A program made the translations under genes and the position numbers. Shown here piece by piece: positions 38,498-63,606 of a stretch of DNA of 64,000 nucleotides (position 1 is its first letter; the number at the start of each line of letters is the position of its first letter). Location: contig NZ_KI519455.1 of assembly GCF_000482545.1 (NCBI RefSeq), forward strand, positions 558,001 to 622,000. The letters run 5' to 3'. Source of the DNA: Arthrobacter sp. 35W. Its GTDB lineage: Bacteria > Actinomycetota > Actinomycetes > Actinomycetales > Micrococcaceae. Below the pieces are notes generated by a model that saw only the letters and a program-made list of their open reading frames with translations, was not told the origin of the DNA and made no database searches.

Positions 38498-38530
38498 TTG
38501 ACAACCTCTTGCAATAACTTTGTACTGACA
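38498..38530 (+). promoter_or_regulatory. Promoter and probable autoregulatory operator of the GntR gene
   Basis: A good -35 TTGACA (38498-38503) and a -10 TGTACT (38521-38526), with 17 bp between. The motif TTTGTACTGACA (38519-38530) covers the -10. The same motif, or its reverse, recurs at the other inositol promoters, so this is probably the operator of the GntR protein itself. Confidence 0.65.
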
Positions 38531-38615
38531 ATAGGATATGGGCTACGGCAACAGAGGGCGGCCCGTCTCGGCTGAGCCGCGCTTTTCTGCGGCGCCGATG
38601 CACTAGGAGATCCCC

Positions 38616-39356
38616 ATGGCCAACTCGCTCAACCTCAACATTGACCGTTCCTCCCCCGTTCCGCTGTACCACCAGGTGGTCAAGGGCATCGAGGCGGCCA
38701 TCCATACCGGCGTCCTGATTCCCGGCAGCAAGCTGGACAATGAGATCGATCTTGCCTCCCAGCTGAACCTTTCCCGCCCCACCATGCGCAAGGCCATGGA
38801 CGAATTGGTCCGGTCAGGGCTGCTGGTGCGCAAACGCGGGGTGGGCACCCAGGTGGTGGCCAGCCAGGTCCGCCGTCCGCTGGAACTCTCCAGCCTCTTC
38901 GACGACCTCAGCGCCCGCGGCAGCAAACCCAGCACCTCTGTCCTGACGTTTTCCCACACGGAGGCGGACCAGGCCACGCTTGAATCCCTGGGCTTGGAGC
39001 CCGGCTCCAAGGTGTACCACTTCACCCGGCTGCGCAAGGTGGATGGCAAGCCGCTGGCCCTGATGGAGAACTGGGTCCGCGACGACATCACGGCCATTGA
39101 CGAGGCCATGCTGGCCAGCCAAGGCCTATACGGGATCCTGCGGAACGCGGGCGTCAACTTCCGCCTGGCCAGCCAGCGCATTGGCGCCATGGTGGCCAAC
39201 GACTACCAGGCTCCGCTGCTGGAGGCGGGGGTTGGGTCCGCCCTGGTCACCATGGACCGCACGGCCGTGGACGACAAGGGACGCATGGTGGAAACCGGCC
39301 ACCACGTCTACCGGGCGGACAACTACAGCTTTGAAATGACACTCGTTCAGCGCTAG
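38616..39356 (+). CDS. iolR: GntR/HutC-family regulator, IolR-like
   Basis: The protein has 246 residues. The HTH is in residues about 12-75 (PLYHQVVKGIEAAIHTGVLIPGSKL...LASQLNLSRPTMRKAMDELVRSGLLVRKRGVGTQV). The C-terminal UTRA effector domain begins near LSSLFDDLSARGSKPSTSVL. The ATG follows AGGAGA. It is next to iolB and carries its own promoter with the shared motif. The symbol iolR is given by context; specificity is not proved by sequence. Confidence 0.85.
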   Translation: MANSLNLNIDRSSPVPLYHQVVKGIEAAIHTGVLIPGSKLDNEIDLASQLNLSRPTMRKAMDELVRSGLLVRKRGVGTQVVASQVRRPLELSSLFDDLSARGSKPSTSVLTFSHTEADQATLESLGLEPGSKVYHFTRLRKVDGKPLALMENWVRDDITAIDEAMLASQGLYGILRNAGVNFRLASQRIGAMVANDYQAPLLEAGVGSALVTMDRTAVDDKGRMVETGHHVYRADNYSFEMTLVQR

Positions 39357-39374
39357 CAGGAAGACCAACAACTT

Positions 39375-40268
39375 ATGGCGAACTGGGTTTACCAACTAGG
39401 TGATGCACGCGACGGGCTCTGGGATGTTTCCCTGGGCACCAGCGATTCGGCGCTAACGGTGGATGGCTGGGCCCACACGGGCCTGAAGGTGGCAACACTT
39501 GAGGCAGGTGCCGCCGTCGAGCTTCCATCCGCCGCCGAAGAACGAATAGTCATCCCCCTCAGCGGCGCCTTCACCGTTGCCGTCGACGGCACGGAGCACC
39601 AGTTGGCGGGCCGCGCCTCGGTCTTCACCGGCCCTTCGGATGTCCTCTATTCGGGCATCAACAAGGCACTGGCCATCAGCTCTGCCGACGGCGGCAGGGT
39701 GGCCATTGCCACCGCGCCTGCGCGCAACCACTACCCCACCCGGCTGGTCGCGGCGGCCGACATCCCGGTCGAATTGCGCGGCGCGGGCAACTGTTCCCGC
39801 CAGGTGCACAATTTCGGCACCCCCGCGGCCCTGGAGGCAGACAGATTCATTGTCTGCGAGGTGATCACGCCCGCGGGCAACTGGTCCTCTTATCCGCCGC
39901 ACAAGCACGATGAGGAAAAAGAAGGCGAAACCGCCCTCGAAGAGATCTACTACTTCGAAACCCGGACAGCCGCCGGTTCACCAGCGCCCGCCGACGCCGA
40001 TGCCATCGGCTACCAGCGCGTGTACGCCTCAGACGAGCGCCCGATCGATGTCAATGCCGAGGTCCGCACAGGCGACACCGTACTGGTCCCGTACGGCTGG
40101 CACGGCCCGGCCATGGCGGCGCCGGGCTACGACCTCTACTACCTCAACATCATGGCTGGCCCCGGCCCAGTCCGCGAGTGGCTGATCAGCGATGACCCGC
40201 ACCACGGTTGGGTCCGGCAGACCTGGGACAGCACGGCCATCGATCCCCGCCTCCCGTTCAGCAGCTAG
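39375..40268 (+). CDS. iolB: 5-deoxy-glucuronate isomerase
   Basis: The protein has 297 residues, a bicupin typical of IolB. The metal-binding region is SSYPPHKHDEEKEGETALEEIYYFE, and the C-terminal YGWHGPAMAAPGYDLYYLNIMAGPG is conserved. It isomerises 5-deoxy-D-glucuronate to 2-deoxy-5-keto-D-gluconate in myo-inositol breakdown. It follows iolR after 18 bp and ends at a hairpin. The rest of the pathway is 14-23 kb away. Confidence 0.93.
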   Translation: MANWVYQLGDARDGLWDVSLGTSDSALTVDGWAHTGLKVATLEAGAAVELPSAAEERIVIPLSGAFTVAVDGTEHQLAGRASVFTGPSDVLYSGINKALAISSADGGRVAIATAPARNHYPTRLVAAADIPVELRGAGNCSRQVHNFGTPAALEADRFIVCEVITPAGNWSSYPPHKHDEEKEGETALEEIYYFETRTAAGSPAPADADAIGYQRVYASDERPIDVNAEVRTGDTVLVPYGWHGPAMAAPGYDLYYLNIMAGPGPVREWLISDDPHHGWVRQTWDSTAIDPRLPFSS

Positions 40269-40290
40269 CCGGACCTCCACAGCACCGCCG

Positions 40291-40347: not shown

Positions 40348-41370
40348 CTAAGGCGCGACCCGCACCGGAACGCCTGTCTCCAGGGATTCCTGGGCTGCGT
40401 CAGCCACCTTCGAGGCGGCGACGGCGTCCTCGGGGGTGCAGGGATTGGTGCGCCGGCCAAGGATCAGCTCGACAAACGCGGCGAGCTCGGCACGGTAGGC
40501 CGTTTCGAAGCGTTCGGCAAAGGTTTGGTGCGGCATGCCGGACGGGAAGCCCACACCCTGCTCCGCGGACCGCAAGGCCGTCTTCTCGTCCAGTCCGACC
40601 ATCAATGAGCCTTGCGAGCCCTGGATTTCCAGCCGGACATCATGCCCGGCGCCGTTGTAGCGTGTGGCCGAGACCGTGCCCACCGTGCCGTCGTCGAAGG
40701 TAACAATGGCGAGGGCGGTGTCTACATCGCCCACGCCGCCAATGGCCGGGTCGCCATTGTTGGAGCCCCGTGCATAGACCTCCACAATGTCGCGGCCCGT
40801 CAGCCAGCGCAGGATGTCGAAATCGTGGACGGAGCAGTCGCGGAACAGCCCGCCGGAGGTGGCCAGGAACTCCACCGGCGGCGGCGCCATGTCTCCGGTG
40901 ACGGCGCGCAGCGAGTGGATCCAGCCCAGTTCGCCGGCGTCGAAGGCCCGCTTTGCTTCCAGATAGCCGGCATCGAAGCGGCGCTGGTGGCCGATCTGCA
41001 CTGTGCCACTCTTGGCCTTGATGTACGCCAGCACGGGGATGGACTCGGCCACATTGACGCCCACGGGCTTTTCACAGAAGACCGGAATCCCGGCGTCGAC
41101 TCCTGCCCTGATCAGCTCCGGGTGGGTGGCCGTGCCCGTGGCGATGACCAGCCCGTCCACACCGGAGGCGACAAGGTCGGCGACGGAGGGCAGGAACGTT
41201 GCGCCGAGCCCCGCCGCAACGGCGCGCGCATGATCGGTGGCAACATCCGTCACGGCCAGCTTGACCGTGATTCCCTGCGGTTTCATCAGCTCATTGAGGG
41301 CCAGAATGTTGTGGGCATGGAGAACGCCAATGCGTCCAACGCCAACAAGGCCAAGGGTGAGGTCTGTCAT
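40348..41370 (-). CDS. Gfo/Idh/MocA oxidoreductase, inositol 2-dehydrogenase-like
   Basis: The protein has 340 residues. It has the Rossmann start LTLGLVGVGRIGVLHAHNI, the CEKPVG motif, and HQRRFDAGYLEAKRAFDAGELG, which is typical for inositol dehydrogenases. HDFDILRWLTGRDIVEV completes the catalytic region. A second IolG-like paralog occurs at 55986. It is divergent from a LacI gene; both share a control region with a LacI palindrome and the inositol motif. Confidence 0.85.
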   Translation of the reverse strand: MTDLTLGLVGVGRIGVLHAHNILALNELMKPQGITVKLAVTDVATDHARAVAAGLGATFLPSVADLVASGVDGLVIATGTATHPELIRAGVDAGIPVFCEKPVGVNVAESIPVLAYIKAKSGTVQIGHQRRFDAGYLEAKRAFDAGELGWIHSLRAVTGDMAPPPVEFLATSGGLFRDCSVHDFDILRWLTGRDIVEVYARGSNNGDPAIGGVGDVDTALAIVTFDDGTVGTVSATRYNGAGHDVRLEIQGSQGSLMVGLDEKTALRSAEQGVGFPSGMPHQTFAERFETAYRAELAAFVELILGRRTNPCTPEDAVAASKVADAAQESLETGVPVRVAP

Positions 41371-41415: not shown

Positions 41416-41427
41416 TGGAACGTTCCA
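41416..41427. promoter_or_regulatory. LacI-type palindrome near the iolG-like promoter
   Basis: TGGAACGTTCCA is a perfect 12-bp palindrome with a central CG. It lies about +7 to +18 from the predicted start of the iolG-like gene, as expected for a repressor site. Confidence 0.62.
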
Positions 41428-41473: not shown

Positions 41474-41487
41474 TTTGTCAGTACAAA
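41474..41487. promoter_or_regulatory. Inositol-type GntR motif (TTTGTCAGTACAAA)
   Basis: TTTGTCAGTACAAA is the exact reverse complement of the 12-bp motif at the GntR promoter (TGTCAGTACAAA) and also forms a short palindrome. It is just upstream of the -35 of the iolG-like gene. Confidence 0.6.
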
Positions 41488-41529: not shown

Positions 41530-42570
41530 TTGTCCACTCCCCCGTCCCGCCGCGCCGCCACCATCCTGGACGTCGCCGCGCGCGCAGGCGTTTCAAAATC
41601 CGTGGTCTCCCTGGTCCTACGCGGCACCGGCTACGTCAGCGCCGCCAAACGGACGGCTGTGGAAACAGCCATGGCGGAGCTGGACTACCGGCCCAATGCC
41701 GCAGCCCGGGCCATGGGCGAATCACGCAGCCGCACCGTCGGTGTGGTGCTCAACGACATGCGCAACCCCTGGTTCGTCAGCGCCGTCGAGGGGCTCAACG
41801 CCACGCTCAACGAGCACGGCATGCAAATGCTGATGGGTGACTTTCGGTTGGACAGCCGCAGCGGCGAGTCCCTGCTCCGCAAGCTGCTGGAAATGAACAT
41901 CGAGGGCCTGGTGCTGGTGGGAACCATGCCGCCCAGTGGCTCGCTGGCCGCCGCCGCAGCCCAGGTGCCCACCGTGGTGCTGGGGGCACCCTCCCCGCCG
42001 GGGCCCAACGTCACAGTCGTCACCAACGACGACGGCGCAGGCGCCCGTCTGGCCGTGGAGCACCTCATCGGGATCGGGCACCGCAGCATTGCCCACGTGG
42101 CGGCCCCCGGCACCGCCGTCGGTGCTGCACGCCAACGCGGCTATGAACAGTCCATGGCCACGGCCGGGCTGGAGTCCTTTGTCCAGGTTGCCGCCGGTGG
42201 ATTGACGGAAGAGGAGGGCTACCGGGCCGGCATCGGCCTGCTCTCCGGCCGGAACCGCCCCAGTGCCGTCTTTGCCGTCAACGACATGGCCGCCCTCGGC
42301 GTGCTCTCCGCCGCGGAGGAACTCGGCCTCGCCGTGCCGGCGGACCTATCCGTGGCCGGCTACGACAACACCCCACTGGCCCAGCTGCGCCGCATCAGCC
42401 TCACCTCGGTGGACAATGCCAGCCGCGAGGCCGGGCAGCGGGCCGCCGAGATCCTGCTGGCCAGGCTGGTCCCGGGTTCCGCGGTCCCGCAGGACCAGAT
42501 GCTGCCGCCCACCCTGGAGGTGCGCGGCAGCACGGCAGCCCCGCGGCCGGCTATGCGGCCGACGGACTGA
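41530..42570 (+). CDS. LacI-family regulator divergent from the iolG-like gene
   Basis: The protein has 346 residues. The HTH is TILDVAARAGVSKSVVSLVLRGTGYVS. The effector domain has VGVVLNDMRNPWFVSAVEGLN and later AVFAVNDMAALGVL. TTG at 41530 is the probable start; GGAGGA is 5-6 bases upstream. Its 3' end overlaps the convergent hyi-like gene by 20 bp. It probably controls the iolG-like gene through the site at 41416. Confidence 0.87.
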   Translation: MSTPPSRRAATILDVAARAGVSKSVVSLVLRGTGYVSAAKRTAVETAMAELDYRPNAAARAMGESRSRTVGVVLNDMRNPWFVSAVEGLNATLNEHGMQMLMGDFRLDSRSGESLLRKLLEMNIEGLVLVGTMPPSGSLAAAAAQVPTVVLGAPSPPGPNVTVVTNDDGAGARLAVEHLIGIGHRSIAHVAAPGTAVGAARQRGYEQSMATAGLESFVQVAAGGLTEEEGYRAGIGLLSGRNRPSAVFAVNDMAALGVLSAAEELGLAVPADLSVAGYDNTPLAQLRRISLTSVDNASREAGQRAAEILLARLVPGSAVPQDQMLPPTLEVRGSTAAPRPAMRPTD

Positions 42571-43327
42571 AGGCTCCCCGGAAGGCTGCCAGGGCAGCCT
42601 CGCTGTCGGCGCTTGCCCATGCCTCCATCCCGACAGTGCCGGTGTAGCCGGCGTCGGCCAGCGCGCGGTGCACCGCGGCATAGTTGATTTCCCCGGTGCC
42701 GGGTTCACAACGGCCCGGCACATCCGCCACCTGGACCTCGCCGACAAACGGCAGGGATGAGCGGAGCAGTTCGATCAGGTTCCCCTCCCCCAGCTGGGCG
42801 TGGTAGAGGTCGAGCATCATCCGGGCGCTGGGGTGGCCGGCCGCCTCGACCAGCGCCCGGGTGTCCTTGGCCCGGGCCAGCGGGATCCCTGGATGGTCCA
42901 GCACTGTGTTGAGGTTTTCCAGACAGAACGTCACACCGTGCGCAGCCCCCAGCTCCCCCAACCGCTGCAGCGTCCGTGCCCCGGTGGCCCACATGGTCCC
43001 CGTGGACCGAAAGACCGGCCGGGCGGCCTGCCCGTCCACCAGCTCGGCGGAGTGGACCACCATGCGGCTGATCCCCAGTTCCAATGCCGTGGGAATGAGC
43101 TCCGCAGCGGTGCGGACCACCTCGTCCGCCGTGTCCGGGTCCACAAGGGAGCCGGCGCTGTACCCGGTCATCGAGGAAAAGACGGCGCCGGTGGCCTTGA
43201 GCGCGGGGATGTCCTTCGGGCGCGAGTCCCACAATTCGACGTCGAAGCCCAGGTCATCGATGCGCCGCACCCGCTCCACAAAGGGCAGCTCCGTAAAGAG
43301 CATTTCCGCGCAGGCGGCCAAGCGCAT
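42551..43327 (-). CDS. Hydroxypyruvate isomerase-like TIM-barrel protein
   Basis: The protein has 258 residues. The xylose isomerase-like barrel shows VELWDSRPKDIP, ENLNTVLDHPG, LDLYHAQLGEGN and the metal region DVPGRCEPGTGEINY, all close to Hyi/OtnI proteins. The reaction could be hydroxypyruvate or another ketose isomerisation. Its ATG shares one base with the stop of the Gfo/Idh gene, so they are coupled under the control of the LacI operators at 44471-44541. Confidence 0.82.
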   Translation of the reverse strand: MRLAACAEMLFTELPFVERVRRIDDLGFDVELWDSRPKDIPALKATGAVFSSMTGYSAGSLVDPDTADEVVRTAAELIPTALELGISRMVVHSAELVDGQAARPVFRSTGTMWATGARTLQRLGELGAAHGVTFCLENLNTVLDHPGIPLARAKDTRALVEAAGHPSARMMLDLYHAQLGEGNLIELLRSSLPFVGEVQVADVPGRCEPGTGEINYAAVHRALADAGYTGTVGMEAWASADSEAALAAFRGAFSPSAA

Positions 43328-44418
43328 CAGGCACCCTTTCCGGCAGGCAACCGGTCGAGCCGGACGGGGGTGCCCTGCTGGACGGATTCGATGCAGGCCA
43401 GCGCCATGCGCAGTGCCCGGCGCGCATCCTCCGGTCCCGGAGCCGCCGTTCCAGCGGGGGCTGCCGCACCCTCGCGGCGGCTGCGGATGGTGGCTGCGAA
43501 GTCCGCCAGCTCGCCGATGTACGCCTCGCGGAAGAGCCCAATGTTCAGCCGCGGGGTTGCCGCGGACAGGCCCTCCACCGTGTAGCGGCGGGCCGCGGTT
43601 TCCGTCGCCCGGCCGGCCTGGACCATCCCTCGGGACCCAAACACCTCACCCCGGATGTCGTAGCCATAGAGTGCACTGAAACTGGCCTCCGCCACGGCCA
43701 GGGCGCCGTTGCCGTAGCGGATGGTCACCACAGCAGTGTCCAGGAATCCGGCCGCTTTGAATGCCGGTTCCACCAGCGCATCGGCCAGGGCATGGATCTC
43801 CACCGGCTCGGCGCCCTCGTTGAACCAGTTGAGCGTGTCGAAATCGTGGATCAGGGTTTCCAGGAAGATGGTCCACGCCGGGGTGCGCCCCGCCTGGGGA
43901 ATGCTGCCGGTGCCGGGATCGCGGGTGAGCGAGCGCAGCAGCTGCGGCCGGCCCACCACACCGGCGGCAATGTCGGCTTTGGCGGCTGCGAAGTCCTCGG
44001 CATAGCGCCGGTTGAAGCCAATCTGGAAAACCACTCCGGCGGACTCCACCTCGGCCAGCGCTGCATCCAGCTCCGGCAGTGCCAGGCCCGCCGGCTTTTC
44101 ACAGAAGACGTGCTTTCCGGCCCGGGCCGCCTGGGCAATCAACTCCGCATGAAAGCGGGCCGGGCTGGCGATGACGACGCCGTCGATCGCCGGATCCGCG
44201 AGCAGGTCCGCGGCGTCCGCCGTCACCTTGGCGACGCCCAGCCGGGCGGCCAGCGCACTGGCCGCCTCCAGCGCCGGGTCCGCGATGGCCGCCAGGGTGG
44301 CGCCCGGGATGTGCCGGGCAATGCTCTCGGCATGGAAGGCGCCCATCCAGCCGGAGCCCACCAGCCCCAGCCGTACTGGCGGCTCTCCTGCCGTTGGCTC
44401 TGTTTCGATGTAGGCCAT
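43327..44418 (-). CDS. Gfo/Idh/MocA-family oxidoreductase
   Basis: The protein has 363 residues. The Rossmann motif is RLGLVGSGWMGAFHAESI; the CEKPAGLA motif carries the catalytic Lys. FNRRYAEDFAAAKADIAAGVVGRPQLLRSLTRDPG and HDFDTLNWFNEGAEPVEI follow. The ATG at 44418 follows AGGAAAGGA. It forms a two-gene operon with the hydroxypyruvate isomerase-like gene, suggesting oxidation of a sugar followed by ketose isomerisation. Confidence 0.84.
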   Translation of the reverse strand: MAYIETEPTAGEPPVRLGLVGSGWMGAFHAESIARHIPGATLAAIADPALEAASALAARLGVAKVTADAADLLADPAIDGVVIASPARFHAELIAQAARAGKHVFCEKPAGLALPELDAALAEVESAGVVFQIGFNRRYAEDFAAAKADIAAGVVGRPQLLRSLTRDPGTGSIPQAGRTPAWTIFLETLIHDFDTLNWFNEGAEPVEIHALADALVEPAFKAAGFLDTAVVTIRYGNGALAVAEASFSALYGYDIRGEVFGSRGMVQAGRATETAARRYTVEGLSAATPRLNIGLFREAYIGELADFAATIRSRREGAAAPAGTAAPGPEDARRALRMALACIESVQQGTPVRLDRLPAGKGA

Positions 44419-44470: not shown

Positions 44471-44484
44471 CTAGATCGATCTAG
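44471..44484. promoter_or_regulatory. LacI operator 1 (CTAGATCGATCTAG)
   Basis: Perfect 14-bp palindrome with a central CG, identical to the second copy at 44528. It lies 53 bp upstream of the Gfo/Idh start. Confidence 0.8.
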
Positions 44485-44527: not shown

Positions 44528-44541
44528 CTAGATCGATCTAG
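44528..44541. promoter_or_regulatory. LacI operator 2 (CTAGATCGATCTAG)
   Basis: Second identical copy, with a 57-bp centre-to-centre spacing. It lies just upstream of the divergent LacI gene. Two exact copies suggest DNA looping or paired repression of both promoters. Confidence 0.8.
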
Positions 44542-44581: not shown

Positions 44582-45616
44582 GTGGCAGCCACACCCCGCC
44601 CCACCATGACCGACGTCGCAGCGGCAGCCGGCGTTTCCCGGGCCCTCGTGTCGATCGTCATCCGTGGTGCCACCGGAGCCAGCGAGGCAACGCGGGCACG
44701 GGTCCTGGCGGCCGCCGCGGACCTCGGCTACCGCCGCGACACCCGTGCCCGGTTGCTCCGCAGCAGCCGCACCGCCATGCTGGGCGTCGCATTCAACGTC
44801 ACCGAGCCCTACCAGGCCGAACTCGTGGAGCTGCTCTACGAGGCCGCCGAGTTGGCCGGGTATGGGATTACGCTCAGCGCCACCGGCCCCCGGCGCAGCG
44901 AGCAGCAAGCCATCGAATCACTGCTGGATCTGGGGGCCGAGGCATTGATCCTGCTCTCCCCTGAAACGCCGGAAGAGGTCCTTGCCGCACTGGGACTGCC
45001 GGTGGTCTCCCTGCTCCACCCCCTGCGTGCCGGCGCCGTCGGGAGCGTCTCCACCGACGAGGCGGCTGGAATCTCCCTGGCGATGGAGCACCTGCGGTCC
45101 CTGGGGCACCACCGGATTGCCCACATCGACGGCGGTTCGGCCGTCGGCTCCGCCGCCCGCCGCCAGGCCTATCTGGAGTTCATGCACCTCCAGGGCTGGG
45201 GTCCGTCCGCCGCCGTCGTTTCCGGGGGGCCCAGCGAGGCCGATGGCTCCCGGGCCGCCCGGGAGCTCCTGGACGGCGCCCGGCGCCCCGGAGCGGAACC
45301 GCACACCGCCGTCGTCGTCTTCAACGACCGCTGCGCCCTGGGGGTGCTGGATGTTTTCGGCAAGACCGGCCTCAGCGTCCCCGGGGACATCTCCGTGGTG
45401 GGCTACGACAACTCGCGGCTGGCCCGGCTTGGGCACATCAACCTGACCTCGATCGGCCAGGACGGGGCGCAGTTGGCTGCCCGGGCCGTCCAGGCCGCCG
45501 TCTCAAGGATCGACGGCGGACCCGTGGTCCACGAGGTGGTGGCGCCCTATCTGGAACCCGGCGGGACCACGGCGGCACCCCAGTGCGAGCCGCCCGGAGG
45601 GCCGGCGATCCCGTAG
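44582..45616 (+). CDS. LacI-family regulator of the divergent Gfo/Hyi operon
   Basis: The protein has 344 residues. The HTH is TMTDVAAAAGVSRALVSIVIRGATGAS. The GTG at 44582 follows CAGGAG at the right spacing; an ATG at 44546 would add twelve residues but sits beside the operator. The effector domain resembles a sugar-binding fold (VVVFNDRCALGVLDVFG). The twin CTAGATCGATCTAG sites in the divergent region are its likely targets. Confidence 0.87.
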   Translation: MAATPRPTMTDVAAAAGVSRALVSIVIRGATGASEATRARVLAAAADLGYRRDTRARLLRSSRTAMLGVAFNVTEPYQAELVELLYEAAELAGYGITLSATGPRRSEQQAIESLLDLGAEALILLSPETPEEVLAALGLPVVSLLHPLRAGAVGSVSTDEAAGISLAMEHLRSLGHHRIAHIDGGSAVGSAARRQAYLEFMHLQGWGPSAAVVSGGPSEADGSRAARELLDGARRPGAEPHTAVVVFNDRCALGVLDVFGKTGLSVPGDISVVGYDNSRLARLGHINLTSIGQDGAQLAARAVQAAVSRIDGGPVVHEVVAPYLEPGGTTAAPQCEPPGGPAIP

Positions 45617-45678: not shown

Positions 45679-46605
45679 TCAGCCCTGCCGCTGGCTGGAC
45701 ACTCCGGCCACCTCGGCAACTTCGGCCACTTCGGCCTGGACCTCCTGGACGACGTCGCTGTGGCCACCCAGCTCTGCGAGTTCGTGGGCCAGCTCGGCCA
45801 GTTCCGCACCGCCGGCCATCTGGGCCGTCAGCTCCTCGAGGGTGACGTCCTTCTTGTCGTAGTAGCCGATCGACTTGCCCCGCTTGAGCAGCAGGAACCT
45901 GTCGCCCACGGGGAAGGCATGGTGCGGGTTGTGGGTGATGAAAATGACCCCCAGCCCGCGGTCGCGGGCCTGCAGGATGTAGCGCAGCACCACACCGGAC
46001 TGCTTCACGCCCAGGGCCGCCGTCGGCTCGTCAAGGATCAGCACCTTGGCCCCGAAATACACGGCGCGGGCAATTGCGACACATTGGCGCTCGCCACCGG
46101 AGAGCTGGCCGATGGGCTGTTCGACGTCGCGCAGGTCGATGCCCATCGCCGCCAGTTCCGCCAGCGTGATGTCCTTCATCTTCTGGACGTCCATGCTCTT
46201 GAACGGGCCCCAGCCGGTGGTCAGCTCGGATCCGAGGAAGAAGTTGCGCCAGATCGGCATGAGCGGGACGACGGCGAGGTCCTGGTAGACCGTGGCGATG
46301 CCCGCGTCCAATGCATCCCTGGGGGAACTGAACTTTCGTTCGGTGCCCATGATGTGCAGCACGCCCTCATCATGCTGGTGGAGGCCGGCAATGATCTTGA
46401 TCAGCGTGGACTTGCCGGCGCCGTTGTCGCCCAGCACGCAGGTCACGCGGCCGTTGTCCACGGCCATGGTGACATCGCGGAGGGCGATGATGTTGCCGTA
46501 GTGCTTTCCCACGCCGTCGAGCGAGAGCAGGTGGACGGGCGTATGGGTCAGTGGATCTTTTTCATCTTTGAGCAGCGTCTGCTGGTCGATCTGTTTGGCA
46601 TTCAT
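45679..46605 (-). CDS. ABC transporter ATPase, CUT2 sugar importer (FrcA type, single NBD)
   Basis: The protein has 308 residues. Walker A is GDNGAGKST, the signature is LSGGERQ and Walker B is [10 protein letters not shown]. Only one nucleotide-binding domain is present, unlike RbsA. From about residue 260 a Glu/Ala-rich helical tail ([27 protein letters not shown]) follows, with coiled-coil-like spacing. It energises the importer whose permease and SBP genes lie upstream. Confidence 0.88.
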
Positions 46606-46617
46606 TGGCCTGGCCCC

Positions 46618-47685: not shown

Positions 47686-47706
47686 GGAAAAACTCCTTGT
47701 TGGTCA

Positions 47707-55880: not shown

Positions 55881-55985
55881 CGTCACTCCTTTGTATCGTC
55901 AAACGGTTCTGCCCAAGGGCGCATCGGCGGAAACGCGGATGGCCGACCGCAACTGCCGGCCGGCCACCCGGTGCACCCCAGAGGT

Positions 55986-56999
55986 TTAGTTGTACAGGTC
56001 CGGCCTGGTGTTGAGCAGGACCTTGACCTTCTCGCCCGATTTCTGGGCTTCGACGCCGGCCTCGCAGCAGGCGGCGGTGGCGTAGCCGTCCCAGGCTGTC
56101 GGACCGCCGACCTCGCCGCGCAGCGCTGCGTCGACCCAGGCCTGGATTTCGACGTCGTACGCGGCACCGAAGCGCTCCTCGAAGCCAGGGGTGACGGAGC
56201 CGCCCCAGCGGCCGGCGGTGCGGATGTAGGGGCCGGCGTCGTTGCCGATGCTGACTATGCCGTCCTCGAAGGTGGCCTGGGTGGCCACCTCGTAGCCGAA
56301 CTTGGCGTTGACATAGATCTCCACGTCGGCCAGAACACCTGACTCGGTCTCAAGCAGCACGTGCTGGGGATCGTGCTGCCCCGCCGGGGCATTGCGCGTG
56401 GCCTTGCCCAGGCGCACCTGCACCGAGGTGATTTCCTCCCCGGTGAAGAAGCGGATGGCGTCGAACTCGTGCACCACCGAGTCGTTGATGAGCATCTCGT
56501 TGGTAAAGCCCTCGGGGGTGTTCGGGTTGCGGTGCTGGTGGTGGAGCATGAGCAGCCCGCCGAGGCCGCCGTCGCGGATCACGGAGCCAAGGGCGGCGTA
56601 TTCGGCGTCGAAACGGCGCATGAAGCCGACCTGGATGCGCTTGCGGCCCAGCTTCTCCTCGGCCTGGACGATCTTCCAGGCGGACTCCGCATCAGGGGTG
56701 AGCGGCTTTTCGCACAGGATGGGGATGTCATGGTCCAGCGCCGTGTAAAGGATGTCCTCGTGCAGGAAACCCGGGGTGGCGATGAGAACGGCGTTGACGT
56801 CGCCGTTGGCCAGGGCCTCCTCGGCACTGGCCAACGCCACGGCACCGGGGATGCCTTCGATGGCGGCCTGGGCCCGGGCCAGGTCGACGTCGACGACGGC
56901 GGCCACCTCGGCACCGTGGATGCGGGTGTTGAGGCGCTTGATGTGGTCTGCGCCCATGCGTCCGGCCCCGATGACGGCTACGCGGAGAATCTCGGTCAT
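55986..56999 (-). CDS. iolG: Inositol 2-dehydrogenase
   Basis: The protein has 337 residues. Rossmann motif RVAVIGAGRMGADHIKRL, catalytic K in CEKPLTPD, GFMRRFDAEYAALG, and the catalytic HEFDAIRFF region are as in IolG. It oxidises myo-inositol to scyllo-inosose with NAD+. It lies in the operon order iolC-(aldolase)-iolD-iolA-iolE-iolG-iolH-iolT. Confidence 0.92.
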   Translation of the reverse strand: MTEILRVAVIGAGRMGADHIKRLNTRIHGAEVAAVVDVDLARAQAAIEGIPGAVALASAEEALANGDVNAVLIATPGFLHEDILYTALDHDIPILCEKPLTPDAESAWKIVQAEEKLGRKRIQVGFMRRFDAEYAALGSVIRDGGLGGLLMLHHQHRNPNTPEGFTNEMLINDSVVHEFDAIRFFTGEEITSVQVRLGKATRNAPAGQHDPQHVLLETESGVLADVEIYVNAKFGYEVATQATFEDGIVSIGNDAGPYIRTAGRWGGSVTPGFEERFGAAYDVEIQAWVDAALRGEVGGPTAWDGYATAACCEAGVEAQKSGEKVKVLLNTRPDLYN

Positions 57000-57038
57000 T
57001 GTCGTGTCCTTAAGTGTCGGAAGTGCTAAAGGGGCGGG

Positions 57039-57950
57039 TCAGTGGACTCGGGTGCGGGAGCCGCAGGAGAGCAGGTAGTTCCGGGTGCGCTTGGCGATCG
57101 GCATGGGAACGTCGAAGGCCACCGGGTACATGTCCTGCTCCACGATGCCGAAGATCGGACGGTTGAGGGCCTCGACCGCCTCGATGACGGCGCGCAGGTC
57201 CGGAAGGCCGCTGGGCGGTTCGGTCATGACGCCGGCCAGATTGGCCGCGGCCCAGGTCAGGCCCTCAGCATTGACCTTGGCCAGAATGTCCGGGTTGATC
57301 TGCTTCAGGTGCAGGTAGCCGATCCGCTCCGGGTGGTTGGTGATCAGCTCCAGGCTGGATGCTCCGCAGTACTCGGCGTGGCCGGTGTCCAGGCACAGGT
57401 TCAGCAGCTCCGGATCCGTTTCGGCCAACAGGCGCTCGATGTCCGCCTGCGCACCCACGTGGGAATCTGCATGCGAGTGGAACTGCTGCTTCAGGCCGAA
57501 GTCCTTCAGCAGCACCGCGCCGAGCTTGTTGTGCCCGGCAAAGAGGTCCGCCCAGGCCCGCTCGGTCAGCTGGCCGCTTTCCACGGCCTCCCCCGTCACG
57601 TCGTCGCGCCACATGGCCGGGATCACCACGATGTTCTCCCCGCCCATGGCGGCAGTGAGTTCGGCGACGTCGCGCGCCGGCTTCCAGGCCTCGTCCCACT
57701 GCTGGGCGCCGCGGTGGAAGGCCGTGAACACGGTTCCGGCCGATACCTGCAGATCGCGGGCTTTGAGCTCTTCGGCGAGCCGGGCCGGATCGGTTGGCAG
57801 GTAGCCATACGGGCCCAGCTCGATCCACTTGTAACCGGACTCGGCCACCTCATCGAGGAAGCGCTCCCACGGCGTCTGCTTCGGATCATCGGCGAACCAG
57901 ACACCCCAGGAATCCGGAGCCGTACCAATGGTCAATGTGTTCTCGGTCAT
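57039..57950 (-). CDS. iolE: myo-Inosose-2 dehydratase
   Basis: The protein has 303 residues, TIM-barrel type. IGTAPDSWGVWF is the IolE N-terminal signature; GYKWIELGPYGYLP and LLNLCLDTGHAEYCG hold metal and substrate residues. It dehydrates scyllo-inosose. The ATG at 57950 is preferred; the upstream frame runs into a hairpin. Confidence 0.93.
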   Translation of the reverse strand: MTENTLTIGTAPDSWGVWFADDPKQTPWERFLDEVAESGYKWIELGPYGYLPTDPARLAEELKARDLQVSAGTVFTAFHRGAQQWDEAWKPARDVAELTAAMGGENIVVIPAMWRDDVTGEAVESGQLTERAWADLFAGHNKLGAVLLKDFGLKQQFHSHADSHVGAQADIERLLAETDPELLNLCLDTGHAEYCGASSLELITNHPERIGYLHLKQINPDILAKVNAEGLTWAAANLAGVMTEPPSGLPDLRAVIEAVEALNRPIFGIVEQDMYPVAFDVPMPIAKRTRNYLLSCGSRTRVH

Positions 57951-57974
57951 CGCAGCCTGTTCTTTCTCGGTCAC

Positions 57975-58042
57975 GCCCAGCTGTGTAGCAGTAGATGCTC
58001 CTATGGGGCTCCATAGGAGCATCTACTGCTATACAGCTGGGC
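57975..58042. terminator. 32-bp hairpin between iolA and iolE
   Basis: Arms 57975-58006 and 58011-58042 pair over 32 bp with one wobble and a 4-nt loop. It is the longest stem in the window and lies inside the iol operon, so it probably acts as an attenuator or processing site. Confidence 0.75.
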
Positions 58043-58048
58043 AGGGGG

Positions 58049-59566
58049 CTAGTTGGAGGGGAAGTTGTAGGAGGCTCCCGAGGCGTGGGCCGGCTCCGGC
58101 CAGCGGGAGGTGATGACCTTGCCACGGGTGTAGAAGGACACGCCCTCCGGACCGTAGATGTGCTTGTCGCCGAAGAGCGAATTCTTCCAGCCGCCGAAGG
58201 AGTGGTAGGCGACGGGGACAGGCAGCGGCACGTTGATGCCGATCATGCCGACATCCACCGAACGCTGGAACTTGCGGGCATTGGCGCCGGAGGACGTGAA
58301 GATCGCGGTGCCGTTGCCGTAGGGGTTGGCGTTGATGAGCTTGATGCCGGCATCGAGGTCTTCAACGCGGACGACGACGAGGACCGGTCCGAAGATCTCC
58401 TCCGTGTACGCCGTCATCTCAGCGTTGACGTAGTCGATCACGGTGGGGCCGACCCAGAACCCGTCTTCATGGCCGGGAACCACCAGGTCGCGGCCGTCCA
58501 CCACCATGGCGGCGCCGGCGGCTTCCGCCTCGGTGACAATCCGGACGATGCGCTCCTTGGAGGCGGGGGTGATGACCGGGCCCATCTCGGCACCGGGCGC
58601 GGTGCCGTTGTCGACCTTCACGGCCAGGGCACGCTCTTCGACCTTCTTCACCAGCAGGTCCGCGGCATCTCCCACGGCCACGGCCACGGAGATGGCCATG
58701 CAGCGCTCACCGGCGGAGCCGAAGGCGGCGGCGGCGAGGTGGTCTGCCGCATTGTCCAGGTCGGCGTCGGGCATCACGATGGCATGGTTCTTCGCACCGC
58801 CCAGGGCCTGAACGCGCTTGCCGTGCGCGGTGGCAGTCTCGTGGACATACTGGGCGATGGGCGTGGAACCGACAAAGGAGATGGCGTCCACATCGGGGTG
58901 GGTCAACAGGCCGTCGACGGTTTCCTTGCCACCGTGCAGCACCTGGAAGACGCCGTCAGGCAGGCCGGCCTCGGTCCACAGCTTGGCCAGCAGCATCGCC
59001 GGGGAGGGATCGCGCTCGGAGGGCTTGAGGATGAAGGCGTTGCCGGTGGCGATGGCAATGGGGCACATCCACAGCGGCACCATGACGGGGAAGTTGAAGG
59101 GCGTGATGCCCGCAACCACACCCACGGGCTCACGGAAGGAAAAGACGTCGATGCCGGTGGAGGCCTGGTCCGAGTACTCGCCCTTGAGCAGCTGCGGAAT
59201 GCCGCAGGCGAACTCGATGACCTCCAGGCCGCGGCCGATCTCGCCCTTGGCATCGGAGAGGACCTTGCCGTGCTCGGCGGTGATCAGGACGGCCAGCTCG
59301 TCCACATGGGCTGCGACCAGTTCGCGGAACTTGAAGAGCACGGTGGTGCGCTTGGCCAGGGACGTCTCGCCCCAGGAGTCGGCGGCATTGCGGGCGGCGG
59401 CCACTGTGGCGTCCAGGTCCACCTGGTTGGCCAGGCGCAGCTGCGCGGTGACGGCACCGGTGGCCGGGTTGTAGACGGGCTGGGTGCGCGCCGACGTGCC
59501 GGCGCTCGGGGCACCGTTGATGAAGTGCTCGATGGTGGCCAATGTTTGTGTTGCAACATCATTCAT
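58049..59566 (-). CDS. iolA: Methylmalonate-semialdehyde dehydrogenase (acylating)
   Basis: The protein has 505 residues of the aldehyde dehydrogenase family. NAD-binding is in TPFNFPVMVPLWMCPIAIATGNAFILKPSERDPS. The catalytic Cys lies in GSAGERCMAIS, and the C-terminal TRGKVITSRW is typical of MmsA. It converts malonate semialdehyde to acetyl-CoA, the last iol step. AAGGAAG supports the ATG at 59566. Confidence 0.93.
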   Translation of the reverse strand: MNDVATQTLATIEHFINGAPSAGTSARTQPVYNPATGAVTAQLRLANQVDLDATVAAARNAADSWGETSLAKRTTVLFKFRELVAAHVDELAVLITAEHGKVLSDAKGEIGRGLEVIEFACGIPQLLKGEYSDQASTGIDVFSFREPVGVVAGITPFNFPVMVPLWMCPIAIATGNAFILKPSERDPSPAMLLAKLWTEAGLPDGVFQVLHGGKETVDGLLTHPDVDAISFVGSTPIAQYVHETATAHGKRVQALGGAKNHAIVMPDADLDNAADHLAAAAFGSAGERCMAISVAVAVGDAADLLVKKVEERALAVKVDNGTAPGAEMGPVITPASKERIVRIVTEAEAAGAAMVVDGRDLVVPGHEDGFWVGPTVIDYVNAEMTAYTEEIFGPVLVVVRVEDLDAGIKLINANPYGNGTAIFTSSGANARKFQRSVDVGMIGINVPLPVPVAYHSFGGWKNSLFGDKHIYGPEGVSFYTRGKVITSRWPEPAHASGASYNFPSN

Positions 59567-59585
59567 GACTGTGGACTTCCTTGGT

Positions 59586-61529
59586 TCAGCCGAGCAGCGT
59601 GCGCTGGCGGGTCTTGTGGTCGGTGTAGGTGGCGAAGGCCCGCTGGGTGGATTCGAGCTCGGACGTCTGGGAGACGGGAACGTCCCACCATGATTCGGAG
59701 CTGGGTGCGTCAAGCAGTGGATCCGATTCGATGTAGATGACGATCGGCCCGGAATGCTCCGGCGCGTCCTTGGCCTGGCCAACGGCGGCTTCCAGATCCT
59801 TGATGGTGTCCTCGCCGGAGGCCACCCGGATCACGCGGGCGCCCAGGCTTTCGGCGTTCAGGGCCAGATCGATCGGCAGTGTCTCGCCGTCGTCGAAGGA
59901 ATGCGCCGCCGGATCGAGGTGGCGGTACTTGGTGCCGAACCGCTGCGAGCCCAGCGACTCCGAGAGTGCGCCGATGGAGGCATAGCCGTGGTTTTGGATC
60001 AGCACCAGGATCAGTTTGATCTTCTCGGCCACAGCCGTGACCAGCTCGGTGTGCATCATCAGGTAGGAGCCGTCACCCACCATGACGACGACGTCGCGCT
60101 GGGCGCCGCCGGCGGCCGCCTCGGCGAGCGCCGCGCGCTTGACGCCCAGACCGCCGGGGATTTCGTAGCCCATGCAGGAGTAGGCATATTCGACGTGGTA
60201 GCCAAACGGATCCGCCACGCGCCACATCTTGTGCAGGTCGCCGGGGAGGGACCCTGCCGCGCAGATGACAACATCCTGGGGGTCCATGGCGCGGTTGGTG
60301 GCGCCGATGATCTCGTTTTGCGACGGCAGCGGGGTGTAGCGGGTGTCGAAGGCGTCATCGACGACGGCGTCCCAACGCTTCTTCTGCGCCGCCACGTCCC
60401 GCTCCAGGTCGCCGCCGACGCGGTAGCCGCCCATGGCCTGGTTCAGCTTGACCAGTGCCTTGCGGGCATCGGCCACGATGGGCAGCGACGTGCCGTGCTT
60501 GTAGGCGTCCAAGGGTGCGACGTTGATGTTGATGAACCGTACGTCCGGGTTCTGGAAGGCCGTCCGCGAGGCGGTGGTGAAGTCCTCGTAGCGGGTGCCG
60601 ATGCCGATGATCAGGTCCGCTTCGGCGGCGATGGCGTTGGCCGCCGTCGTGCCGGTGGAGCCGATGGCTCCGAGGGAGAGCGGGTGGTTCCACGGCAGGA
60701 CGCCAACGCCGGCCTGGGTGTTGCCCACCGGGATCCCCGTGGCTTCGGCAAACCTGGCCAACTCGCCGTCGGCATAGGCGTAGAGCACCCCGCCGCCGGC
60801 GATGACCAGCGGCCGTTTGGCGGCGCGGATCGCCTCAACTGCACGGCGGATATCATCGTCCTCCGGCTCCGGGCGGCGGACGCGCCATTCGCGCTCGGCC
60901 AGGAACTCATCCGGCACCTCGAAGGCCTCGGCCTGGACATCCTGCGGCAGCGAAATGGTCACGGCCCCTGTTTCGGCCGGGTCCGTCAGGACGCGCAGGC
61001 CGCTGAACATCGCGGAGAACAGCTGCTCCGGCCGGGACACCCGGTCGAAGAACTTCGAGAGCGGGCGGAACGCATCGTTGACCGTGATGTCGTAGGCGTA
61101 GGGCTGTTCGAGCTGCTGCAGCACCGGATCCGACGCGCGGGTGGCAAAGGTGTCCGAGGGCAGCAGCAGCACGGGCAGCCTGTTGGTGGTGGCCAGCGCG
61201 GCACCGGTGAGCAGGTTGGTGGAACCCGGGCCGATGGAGGTGCTGATGGCAAAGGTCTGGCGGCGGCGGGTGTGCCGGGCATAACCCACGGCCTGGTGCG
61301 CCTGTGCCTGCTCATTGCGGCCCTGGTAGTAGGGCATCAGGGTTGGATCGTTGAGCTGGTACTGCTTGAGCGCCTGTCCGACACCTGCCACATTGCCGTG
61401 CCCGAAAATGCCAAACATGCCCGGAATCAGGCGGCCGCGGTATTCCTGGCCATCGATCGTGTCGACGGTGTACTGATTGCCGAGGAACTCCACTACGGCC
61501 TGGGCAACCGTCATTGTGCGTGTAGCCAT
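59586..61529 (-). CDS. iolD: 3D-(3,5/4)-trihydroxycyclohexane-1,2-dione hydrolase
   Basis: The protein has 647 residues, thiamine diphosphate-dependent. GDGSYLMMHTELVTAVAEKIKLILVLIQNHGYASIG carries the ThDP motif GDGSx..N; YQGRNEQAQAHQAVGYARHTRRRQTFAISTSIGPGSTN is the N-terminal domain. It opens the ring to 5-deoxyglucuronate. 20 bp upstream of iolA. Confidence 0.94.
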   Translation of the reverse strand: MATRTMTVAQAVVEFLGNQYTVDTIDGQEYRGRLIPGMFGIFGHGNVAGVGQALKQYQLNDPTLMPYYQGRNEQAQAHQAVGYARHTRRRQTFAISTSIGPGSTNLLTGAALATTNRLPVLLLPSDTFATRASDPVLQQLEQPYAYDITVNDAFRPLSKFFDRVSRPEQLFSAMFSGLRVLTDPAETGAVTISLPQDVQAEAFEVPDEFLAEREWRVRRPEPEDDDIRRAVEAIRAAKRPLVIAGGGVLYAYADGELARFAEATGIPVGNTQAGVGVLPWNHPLSLGAIGSTGTTAANAIAAEADLIIGIGTRYEDFTTASRTAFQNPDVRFININVAPLDAYKHGTSLPIVADARKALVKLNQAMGGYRVGGDLERDVAAQKKRWDAVVDDAFDTRYTPLPSQNEIIGATNRAMDPQDVVICAAGSLPGDLHKMWRVADPFGYHVEYAYSCMGYEIPGGLGVKRAALAEAAAGGAQRDVVVMVGDGSYLMMHTELVTAVAEKIKLILVLIQNHGYASIGALSESLGSQRFGTKYRHLDPAAHSFDDGETLPIDLALNAESLGARVIRVASGEDTIKDLEAAVGQAKDAPEHSGPIVIYIESDPLLDAPSSESWWDVPVSQTSELESTQRAFATYTDHKTRQRTLLG

Positions 61530-61532
61530 TGT

Positions 61533-62471
61533 TTACTCCTGGACCAGGGCGGGCGAGTGGTTGAGCAGCGAGGCGGCGGTGGCGACGGCCGCGGCCACGT
61601 CACCGTCCTGCGGATAGAGCAGCGTCCGTCCCACGGTGAGGCCGCGCACGCCCGGCAGCGCCAGGGCGGCCTGCCAGCTGGCGAAGACCTCATCCGGGTG
61701 CCCCGAAGGATCCCCGCCGAGCAGCACGGTGGGCAGTGTGGTGGCCGCCATGACACGCTCCATCTCCGCCACCACGGGAAGCTTCATCCAGGTGTAGGCA
61801 CTGGTGGATCCCAGACCCTGGGCGATGGCCACGGACTTGATCACGGCATCGGCGGAAAGGTCGTTGCGGACCTTGCCGTTCTCCCACACCGAGAGGAACG
61901 GCTCCACCATGGCGATCAACCGGCGCTCGGCCAGCGAATCAATGACCCTCGCCGTGGCTTCAAGCGTTCCCACGGTGTCCGGATCGCCCAGGCAGATGCG
62001 GGTGAGCATCTTGCCGCCGTCGGCGCCCATCGATTGCAGGGCGGTGGCGGTGTGGCCGGTGAAGCGGTCGTCAAACTCGTTGACCAGGCCGGCCAGTCCC
62101 CCACGGTTCATGGACCCAAAGATCAGCTTGCCTTCGAGGGCACCCATCAGCATGAGGTCGTCCATGATGTCCGGGGAGGCCAGCACACCGTCGACGGCCG
62201 GGTTTGCCAGGGCAATCTGCAAACGGTCCAGCAGGGTGCGCCGGTCCGCCATCGCCACCGCGTCCGTGCGGACGGACAGGGCTCCGCGTGCCGGGTGGTC
62301 TGCGGCGACGATGAAGTTCTGCTGCCCGTACTTCAGCCCGGGGTGGCGGCGGCGCGCTGCCGCCGCCCGCGCAATGGCCGCCGGATCCTCAAGCCGGATT
62401 CTGCTCAGATGCTCGTACCGGCGCGGGTCGTCATTGGCGCCGTCGACGATGCTCAACGTTGGTGTGCTCAC
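61533..62471 (-). CDS. Putative aldolase, Cgl0159-type (beta/alpha)8 protein of the iol cluster
   Basis: The protein has 312 residues. A (beta/alpha)8 domain related to DeoC/LacD aldolases has IVAADHPARGALS, MVEPFLSVWENG and TVLLGGDPSGHPDEVF. Homologs occupy the same position in Corynebacterium and Streptomyces iol clusters. It may cleave 2-deoxy-5-keto-gluconate 6-phosphate (the IolJ step), since no IolJ is seen. The GTG start overlaps the iolC stop by 4 bp. Confidence 0.8.
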   Translation of the reverse strand: MSTPTLSIVDGANDDPRRYEHLSRIRLEDPAAIARAAAARRRHPGLKYGQQNFIVAADHPARGALSVRTDAVAMADRRTLLDRLQIALANPAVDGVLASPDIMDDLMLMGALEGKLIFGSMNRGGLAGLVNEFDDRFTGHTATALQSMGADGGKMLTRICLGDPDTVGTLEATARVIDSLAERRLIAMVEPFLSVWENGKVRNDLSADAVIKSVAIAQGLGSTSAYTWMKLPVVAEMERVMAATTLPTVLLGGDPSGHPDEVFASWQAALALPGVRGLTVGRTLLYPQDGDVAAAVATAASLLNHSPALVQE

Positions 62472-63463
62472 TGTGCGGCACCTTCCGGGGTCAGCCGGCC
62501 GCGTTCGGCCAGCAGTGAATTGACTTCCTCCGGTGTGGGCATGGCATCCGCGCAGGAAAGACGGGAGGCCACAATGGCACCGGCGGCGTTCGCATAGTCC
62601 AGAACCCGCTCCAACGGCCAGCCGGAGAGCAGTCCGTGGACGAAGGCTCCACCGAAGGAGTCGCCGGCGCCCAGACCATTGAGCGTCTCCACGGGAACGG
62701 GGGCGGAGACGACTCGCTCGGTGCGGGTCTTGGCCATCACGCCCTCGGGCCCCAGCTTGACGACGGCGATCTCCACACCGGCTGCGAGCAGCCTGTCGGC
62801 CTGCTCGTCCGGGGTGCCTTCGCCGACGGCCACCGCACATTCCTTGTCATTGCCGATGGCAACGGTGACATGCGGCAGAATCCTGGCGATCTGGGTCCGT
62901 GCGGCCTCTTCGGATTCCCAGAACATGGGGCGGTAGTCGAGGTCAAGGATGGTGTACTGGCCGATGCGCAGCTGGTCCCGGTCCCGCGCCTCATGGGCCC
63001 TGAGGTGTGCCCCTCGGCTGGGTTCCTGGCTCAGTCCCGTGACAGTGGACCAGAAGACCCGGGCATCCCTGATGGCGTCGGTGTCCAATTCCGCGGCCCT
63101 GATCTGCAGGTCCGGGGCGGTGGGGAAACGTCCGTAGAAGTACAGCGGAAAGTCATCAGGGGGCATGATGGCGCAAAATGTGACGGGCGTCTGCAGCTTC
63201 GCGACGGGGGTGACGAACTGGTCGTCAACGTTGAACTTTCGCAGTTCGCGGTGCAGGTAGGCGCCGAAGGAGTCGTCCCCGGTGCGGGTGATGACAGCCG
63301 TCCGGCGTCCGTGCCGGGCCGCAGCCACGGCGACGTTGGAGGGGGAACCGCCAAGGTACTTCCCGAAGGAATTGACGTCTTCCAGACCCACGCCAATGTC
63401 GTTGGGGTAGATGTCGACGCTGATGCGCCCGATGGTAAGCAATTCATGTGACACGGTGATCAA
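62468..63463 (-). CDS. iolC: 5-Dehydro-2-deoxygluconokinase
   Basis: The protein has 331 residues if it starts at TTG 63463; a GTG at 63454 would also fit. PfkB carbohydrate kinase: N-terminal GKYLGGSPSNVAVAAARHG and C-terminal NGLGAGDSFGGAF with the catalytic Asp. It phosphorylates 2-deoxy-5-keto-gluconate. It is the first gene of the iol operon, downstream of a promoter with two GntR motifs and a Crp site. Confidence 0.9.
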   Translation of the reverse strand: MITVSHELLTIGRISVDIYPNDIGVGLEDVNSFGKYLGGSPSNVAVAAARHGRRTAVITRTGDDSFGAYLHRELRKFNVDDQFVTPVAKLQTPVTFCAIMPPDDFPLYFYGRFPTAPDLQIRAAELDTDAIRDARVFWSTVTGLSQEPSRGAHLRAHEARDRDQLRIGQYTILDLDYRPMFWESEEAARTQIARILPHVTVAIGNDKECAVAVGEGTPDEQADRLLAAGVEIAVVKLGPEGVMAKTRTERVVSAPVPVETLNGLGAGDSFGGAFVHGLLSGWPLERVLDYANAAGAIVASRLSCADAMPTPEEVNSLLAERGRLTPEGAAQ

Positions 63464-63540
63464 AAGACCTTTCTGCGACGAACGTTCCCCAGGACTGGTA
63501 GATCATTGATCCGGCGGAGCCTTGATGCTGGCGGCCGCCG

Positions 63541-63556
63541 TGTGAGCGGGGCCACA
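63541..63556. promoter_or_regulatory. Crp-type site at the iolC promoter
   Basis: TGTGAGCGGGGCCACA has one mismatch from TGTGAN6TCACA. It begins at the predicted start of the iolC transcript, as at the sugar ABC promoter. Confidence 0.6.
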
Positions 63557-63562
63557 AGAACC

Positions 63563-63606
63563 ACTGTGCATCAAAATTCATGTCCTGTCAAAGGTTTGTT
63601 CTGACA
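63563..63606 (-). promoter_or_regulatory. iolC promoter with two GntR motifs
   Basis: -35 TTGACA (minus strand, 63586-63591) and -10 CACAGT (63563-63568), 17 bp apart. Motif copies are TGTCCTGTCA (63581-63590), overlapping the -35, and TTTGTTCTGACA (63595-63606) just upstream. Confidence 0.6.

Follow-up and report, generated by a model that had tools for sequence, protein, structure and literature searches.

A candidate operator word in the inositol cluster

The window analyzed here is a 64,000-nucleotide stretch of the genome of Arthrobacter sp. 35W (RefSeq assembly GCF_000482545.1, contig NZ_KI519455.1, positions 558,001 to 622,000). It contains an inositol cluster that comprises a gene for a GntR/UTRA regulator (gntR), iolB, three lacI genes, inositol dehydrogenase-like genes, a sugar-type ATP-binding cassette (ABC) importer, an operon headed by gfoA, the iol operon, and a tautomerase gene (Table 1). 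A sequence-only reading of this DNA had pointed to six copies of the word TGTNCTGWCA in the promoters of the cluster. All six are present, and the window has no other exact match; across 100 shuffles of its sequence the mean was 0.58 matches and the maximum 4, none reaching 6. Each copy was called intergenic by a home-made gene caller that marked 92% of positions 38000 to 64000 as coding; the caller was trained on 12 genes of the window and overlooks genes in some loci. A seventh copy begins 113 bases beyond the window end and lies 19 bases upstream of the start called for the tautomerase gene.

We searched the whole genome (4.66 Mb in four contigs) with exact and mismatch-limited patterns, which stood in for a weight-matrix scan. 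Exact TGTNCTGWCA occurs 18 times and the reversed word 24 times; the A variant, TGTNCTAWCA, adds 2 further matches, compared with 24 for its own reversed control. Seven of these 20 matches fall within 25.6 kb, at window positions 38494 to 64123, with a binomial p of 1e-11 that is only descriptive because the stretch was picked for its sites. Genome-wide, a 15-base extended pattern with up to three mismatches matched 26 times, versus 11 for its reversal.

Some observations fit chance words favored by promoter-like composition: one-mismatch versions are not enriched in the window (19 seen, 15.75 expected), and genome-wide the word is rarer than its reversed control. The clustering in the window, together with the recurrence at orthologous promoters described below, makes chance exceedingly improbable. 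The word might instead be the site of a global carbon or stress regulator that happens to include the cluster. Eleven of the 18 exact matches lie outside it, 9 of the 11 having been called intergenic by a loose calling on 4-kb pieces that misses long reading frames, and relatives without the GntR gene still average about one copy each. Against this, the word is about 100 times denser in the cluster (7 in 25.6 kb versus 13 in the remaining genome), matches outside are no commoner than the reversed word, and copy number tracks the presence of the GntR gene. We regard a global regulator as very unlikely.

Two further places in the genome may be recorded. TGTCCTAACA occurs at C1:425126 (L236, 10127 to 10136) in the 29 bases that separate a LacI-like gene from another GFO/IDH/MocA dehydrogenase gene, and is possibly a further regulon member or a chance match. 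TGTTCTGTCA, at C1:467145 (L003, 2001 to 2010), is intergenic by the caller and precedes genes that resemble, by eye, hydroxypyruvate isomerase and hydroxyacid dehydrogenase genes; this is probably chance.

Table 1. Candidate operator sites and genes of the inositol cluster (window coordinates)
Feature	Position	Strand	Remarks
GntR word TGTACTGACA, extended form TGTACTGACAATAGGATA	38521..38530	+	Upstream of gntR; same place in close relatives
GntR word TGTACTGACA	41476..41485	-	Between iolG1 and lacI_A; 60 bases start-to-start from LacI_A palindrome
GntR word TGTCCTGACA	48846..48855	+	Upstream of importer, adjoining a -35/-10-like pair
GntR word TGTCCTGTCA	50045..50054	-	Between lacI_C and gfoA
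GntR word TGTCCTGTCA	63581..63590	+	Upstream of iolC, first of tandem
GntR word TGTTCTGACA	63597..63606	+	Upstream of iolC, second of tandem; starts 16 bases after first
GntR word TGTCCTGTCA	64113..64122, past window end		Upstream of tautomerase gene
Palindrome TGGAACGTTCCA, presumed LacI_A operator	41416..41427		Similar palindromes beside GntR word in relatives
CTAGATCGATCTAG copy 1, presumed LacI_B operator	44471..44484
CTAGATCGATCTAG copy 2, presumed LacI_B operator	44528..44541
TTGTTGCGCTCCAA, LacI_C-like site	48912..48925		Between lacI_C and importer; one-letter variant of TTGTAGCGCTCCAA
TTGTAGCGCTCCAA, presumed LacI_C operator	50089..50102		44 bases start-to-start from GntR word
gntR, GntR/UTRA regulator, 246 amino acids	38616..39356	+	Pfam UTRA 5.9e-31, GntR 2.2e-14
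iolB, 5-deoxy-glucuronate isomerase	39375..40268	+	Downstream of gntR; TIGR04378 over cut-off
iolG1, inositol 2-dehydrogenase-like	40348..41370	-	Divergent from lacI_A; TIGR04380 299 bits, under cut-off 355
lacI_A, LacI-family regulator	41530..42570	+	Pfam LacI
isoX, xylose-isomerase-like TIM barrel	42551..43327	-
iolG2, inositol 2-dehydrogenase-like	43327..44346	-	TIGR04380 301 bits (longer reading 43327-44487), cut-off 355
lacI_B, LacI-family regulator	44582..45616	+
Sugar-type ABC importer	45679..48747	-	ATPase 45679-46605, permease 46618-47685, binding protein 47752-48747
lacI_C, LacI-family regulator	48972..50036	-	Pfam LacI
gfoA operon	50154..53473	+	GFO/IDH/MocA dehydrogenase, xylose-isomerase-like TIM barrel, second GFO/IDH/MocA dehydrogenase
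iol operon	53554..63463	-	iolC (62468-63463), Cgl0159-like, iolD, mmsA/iolA, iolE-like, iolG3, TIM barrel (iolH/I-like), sugar porter (iolT)
Tautomerase gene	63680..64000 in window, continues to 64093	-

Recurrence of the word in relatives

Two sets of loci from relatives were compared. The first holds 35 loci of at most 20 kb around GntR homologs 38 to 93% identical to the window protein, taken from 35 of the 36 places scoring at least 150 bits (G080 was omitted). The second holds 80 named loci, three of which repeat first-set genomes and were kept for the intergenic and intragenic counts but dropped for the tables of 112 loci. Named loci reached via the GntR protein at 74 to 85% identity come from Arthrobacter, Paenarthrobacter, Pseudarthrobacter, Paeniglutamicibacter, and Sinomonas. 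With the word widened to TGTNCTRWCA, the first set contained 50 intergenic and 1 intragenic match (reversed word, 2 and 2), and the second contained 118 and 5 (reversed word, 1 and 4), the called intergenic share of the sequence being 18% in both. The unwidened TGTNCTGWCA gave 33 intergenic and 1 intragenic match in the 35 loci, versus 2 and 2 for its control. Permuting the columns of the word gave a mean of 2.0 intergenic matches and a maximum of 8 in the 35 loci (200 permutations), and a mean of 4.5 and a maximum of 15 in the 80 loci (100 permutations).

An intergenic word was found in 84 of the 112 loci. Counting a site in a divergent gap for both flanking genes, the word stood before gntR in 67 loci, before the binding-protein gene in 26, before iolC and gfoA in 11 each, before iolG1 in 10, before lacI_C in 8, and before iolT in 6; 21 of the 162 sites had no recognized target. 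Tables of upstream regions, which list at most 40 regions per gene and reach 330 bases, gave the word for 23 of 29 importers whose binding protein is at least 61% identical. The tautomerase gene had the word upstream in 7 of 8 loci, six of these eight having been fetched for such matches. The loci chosen from genome-scan matches are L228 to L231, L234, and L235, and their sites are not independent counts because the loci were fetched for those matches.

Among unselected iolC upstream regions with at least 80% protein identity, the word is present in 4 of 4 and the tandem stands in the same 16-base register in 3; the fourth (L053, 81% identity) has two sites 71 bases apart. Six further iolC loci, fetched for such matches, have the tandem in 5 cases. 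The 16-base register is common to the window and 8 of the 9 relatives compared, three of which came from unselected sets and six of which were fetched for their matches.

Other occurrences stood apart from these promoters. A close pair of sites in G001 and G022 lies beside a gene that by eye is FtsK-like, and single intragenic sites occur in L232 and L233; these look unrelated to inositol. In G015 (contig C2; L224, 7344 and 8155), two copies of TGTCCTATCA in opposite directions stand 811 bases apart in a 14.6-kb stretch with one called gene.

Co-occurrence of the word, the GntR gene, and iol genes

Among 98 genomes, the presence of a GntR homolog (at least 150 bits) and that of iolD (over the model cut-off) agree in 94, with both in 32 and neither in 62; three genomes have the GntR homolog only and one has iolD only. 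Whole-genome scans with WTGTCCTRWCAW served as a test that does not depend on the locus. Within the family, genomes with the GntR gene average 4.95 matches (n = 21) versus 1.0 for those without it (n = 39; p = 6e-8, ignoring kinship), and the reversed-word controls average 1.33 and 0.74, respectively. Within the genus, genomes with the gene average 6.4 (n = 9) and those lacking it 2.0 (n = 14; p = 3e-4, again ignoring kinship).

The GntR protein and its presumed operator

The GntR protein belongs to the GntR/HutC group, with an N-terminal winged helix (PF00392) and a C-terminal UTRA domain (PF07702), both over cut-off. Its best solved relatives are 2ra5, followed by YvoA/NagR and DasR. PDB entry 2p19, presumably a Corynebacterium glutamicum protein, matches the UTRA part at 8e-24. 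The TGTC-CT-GACA core of conserved sites has the half-site spacing of dre sites and matches that of the NagR operator.

As described in PMC4333415, NagR contacts the guanines at -5 and -4 through Arg38 and Arg48. We aligned the window protein with sequences from 20 of 29 relatives' loci. All 21 sequences have I, L, or V at the position equivalent to Arg38, and all 21 keep Arg at the one equivalent to Arg48. This pattern would fit a T in place of G before the conserved G (half-sites TG, not GG).

The flanks of the word are also conserved. Among 157 unique sites, A or T directly precedes the core in 153 and directly follows it in 155. A GGACA half-site at offset 13 matches at least 4 of 5 letters in 47 sites, compared with 0 to 8 at any other offset in the range 10 to 22; among the seven home sites, the gntR site matches 4 of 5 letters and the rest 1 to 3. 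TGTATTGACA, at 38494 to 38503, differs from the word by one mismatch and starts 27 bases before the gntR site, and may be a -35 element or a second, weak site.

From the geometry of the sites and their distribution, we propose that the GntR/UTRA regulator encoded at 38616 to 39356 uses the word as its core operator, with a consensus of TGTCCTRWCA, A/T flanks, and often GGACA 13 bases after the core start. As a dimer, the regulator would occupy sites upstream of gntR itself (and then iolB), of iolC (two sites), and of the tautomerase gene, the importer, gfoA/lacI_C, and iolG1/lacI_A. The protein most likely acts at these seven sites in six promoter regions, its own included. It would keep its targets off until inositol or a breakdown product bound the UTRA domain and released it. 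On the sequence evidence, we consider it highly probable that the word is the operator of this neighboring GntR/UTRA repressor and that the three LacI regulators read palindromes of their own on top.

Several observations weigh against this assignment. The word's nearness to gntR is partly built in, because the loci were found via the GntR gene, and 28 of the 112 GntR loci lack an intergenic copy. The R at position 7 was introduced after relatives had been inspected. Upstream of iolC the word appears in 11 of the 26 regions listed, upstream of iolG1 in 9 of the 40 listed, and six importer upstream regions (binding protein 65 to 71% identical) lack it within 330 bases. The argument from residues to bases is drawn from a single solved relative. 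G081, a genome of the same order that has iolD, has no GntR ortholog and no word at its iolD locus.

A distant actinobacterial set adds to these points. It comprises 42 iolD genomes (41 of the 44 over cut-off, plus G081), and loci were obtained from 20 of the 25 genomes that have a GntR homolog and from 16 of the 17 that lack one. An intergenic word was present in 3 of the 20 loci from genomes with the homolog, several of which do not span gntR itself; in one further locus of the 20 the caller placed two matches inside a gene (for L211, with two matches so placed, probably a caller error). Loci from genomes without the homolog had the word in 0 of 16, a result confounded by kinship and by the shortness of some loci. 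The comparison says little, because an intergenic word is absent from 17 of the 20 loci with the homolog as well as from all 16 without it.

Conservation, co-occurrence, and operator geometry lend good support to a GntR-centered regulon with the importer and the gfo operon among its members. The sequence-only reading had drawn one GntR regulon across 25 kb, including the importer and uncharacterized genes. Its extension to the importer and the gfo operon is supported. Not every operon of the 25 kb belongs to the regulon, because iolG2-isoX carries LacI_B palindromes and has no word upstream in the window.

LacI-type palindromes of the cluster

The window also holds five LacI-type palindromes of three kinds, each centered on CG (Table 1). 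All 10 gfoA relatives of at least 76% identity have both the word and a LacI_C-type palindrome (at most one mismatch), 30 to 45 bases apart (44 here); among four more distant gfoA-like genes, the word occurs in 1 and the palindrome in 0. Likewise, the 3 lacI_A relatives of at least 57% identity all have the word and a palindrome 59 to 60 bases apart (60 here), while five more distant ones have the word in 1 case and the palindrome in none. LacI_B palindromes (at most two mismatches) are found upstream of 6 of 7 lacI_B and 7 of 15 iolG2 genes in relatives. The GntR word occurs within 330 bases in 0 of these 22 listed regions, several of them being opposite sides of a shared gap. The LacI_C-like site at 48912 has no counterpart among the 40 importer upstream regions listed for relatives.

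We asked whether the word itself could be the operator of a LacI-family regulator in the cluster. Sites 41476 and 50045 adjoin lacI genes, 48846 lies between lacI_C and the importer, and LacI regulators, according to PMC4052901, commonly control sugar genes and regulate themselves in 72% of the cases studied. The same source gives a central CG as characteristic of most even LacI operators. The word lacks a central CG and is not an even palindrome of that type, whereas each of the three lacI genes has its own CG palindrome, refound beside closer relatives. Of the seven lacI_B upstream regions, 6 have the palindrome and none has the word, and 58 of the 84 word-bearing loci have no lacI-like gene within the stretch examined. 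LacI ownership of the word was rejected on palindrome type and distribution, and we give it very little credence.

LacI_A and LacI_C would instead act from promoter regions that also contain the GntR word, and iolG2-isoX would be served by LacI_B only. Judging from the arrangement of sites, the LacI layer most likely adds substrate-specific control. More tentatively, and with somewhat less than even confidence, we suggest a two-layer control, conserved across several genera, in which the GntR repressor senses a demand for inositol breakdown and gates the whole pathway, and LacI repressors that sense particular inositols or their derivatives control individual feeder modules at those promoters. 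If this is true, both signals would be required at gfoA and lacI_A/iolG1 and just that of its own LacI at iolG2-isoX, and the near-constant spacings (30 to 45 bases for LacI_C, 59 to 60 for LacI_A) would stem from joint action at a single promoter. Such paired operators would offer a compact natural case of a general and a specific repressor acting on one promoter.

Promoter elements and the direction of control

Every copy of the word had been claimed to lie on or beside a -35/-10 pair. Six promoter scans, five of regions that cover the six window sites and one covering the seventh, did not bear this out: a sigma-70-like pair reached the scanner threshold in 1 of 6 regions. That pair is at the importer (TTGACA-17-CATGAT, 48840 to 48812, minus strand). 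By eye, TTGACA hexamers lie in or beside the sites at 38498 and 50044, with poor -10 partners.

The lack of a good pair in 5 of 6 regions at this threshold is what activated promoters may show, and the title of PMC6141813 terms NagR of Bacillus thuringiensis a dual regulator; the GntR protein might be an activator, or both activator and repressor, at some promoters. Its characterized relatives are repressors, namely, C. glutamicum IolR (PMC9603128), NagR (PMC4333415), and DasR (PMC4918961). We infer by this analogy that the GntR protein represses rather than activates, and an activating role seems unlikely.

Comparison with known systems

The best reading of the inositol cluster from its sequence appears to be an IolR-type GntR regulon with a nested LacI arrangement. 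C. glutamicum IolR is a GntR-type repressor of 22 genes, mostly inositol genes, and is described as controlling inositol uptake and breakdown (PMC9603128 and PMC6475665). The cluster resembles that system in its regulator type, in having inositol uptake and breakdown genes as presumed targets, and in the Cgl0159-like gene of its operon, and the GntR gene co-occurs with iol genes, as an IolR-type regulon would require. It differs in having the word at an ABC importer and in enclosing three lacI genes, each with palindromes of its own. The putative consensus of C. glutamicum IolR, KGWCHTRACA, a string that did not turn up in the PMC papers searched, would fit TGTCCTRACA.

The IolR of Bacillus subtilis is a DeoR-type protein. 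These systems share inositol-linked control of iol genes and differ in regulator family, as does Sinorhizobium IolR, which is of the RpiR type according to a reference title cited in PMC9603128. NagR (YvoA) and DasR, GntR/HutC repressors at dre sites, are akin in sequence, and the GTC-NN-GAC core is spaced like GTC-TA-GAC in the NagR operator GTGGTCTAGACCAC given in PMC4333415; here, by contrast, the Arg38 position is aliphatic, base -5 is T rather than G, and the targets are others. Local sugar regulons of the LacI family likewise have CG-centered palindromes beside lacI genes (PMC4052901), whereas here, for two of the three, the GntR word lies in the same promoter region at a near-constant distance. 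Among the papers listed by searches of the open-access PMC literature, we found no description of the regulon in Arthrobacter-like bacteria and did not encounter the nested LacI arrangement. The operator map, with its seven GntR sites and five LacI-type palindromes of three kinds, concerns inositol use in Arthrobacter-like bacteria and would tie uncharacterized dehydrogenase/isomerase operons, the tautomerase, and the ABC importer to the inositol pathway.

Genes and other features of the cluster

Within the iol operon, iolC, iolD, mmsA (methylmalonate-semialdehyde dehydrogenase), and the sugar porter score over the cut-offs of their NCBIfam models, and iolE and iolG score under them. The closest NCBIfam model to the importer binding protein is that of a rhizopine-binding protein, at 176 bits, under the cut-off of 420. 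GC-rich inverted repeats at 52349 to 52450 (the tim51/gfoB gap) and 53474 to 53553 (between convergent gfoB and iolT) are possible terminators. Inside the iol operon, between called iolE and iolA, positions 57975 to 58048 can form a hairpin of 31 pairs with one mismatch (-61.3 kcal/mol, z = -10.9), which is possibly a small repeat element or an mRNA-stabilizing hairpin; weaker relatives occur elsewhere in the genome at C2:257840-257903 and C1:2039854-2039915.

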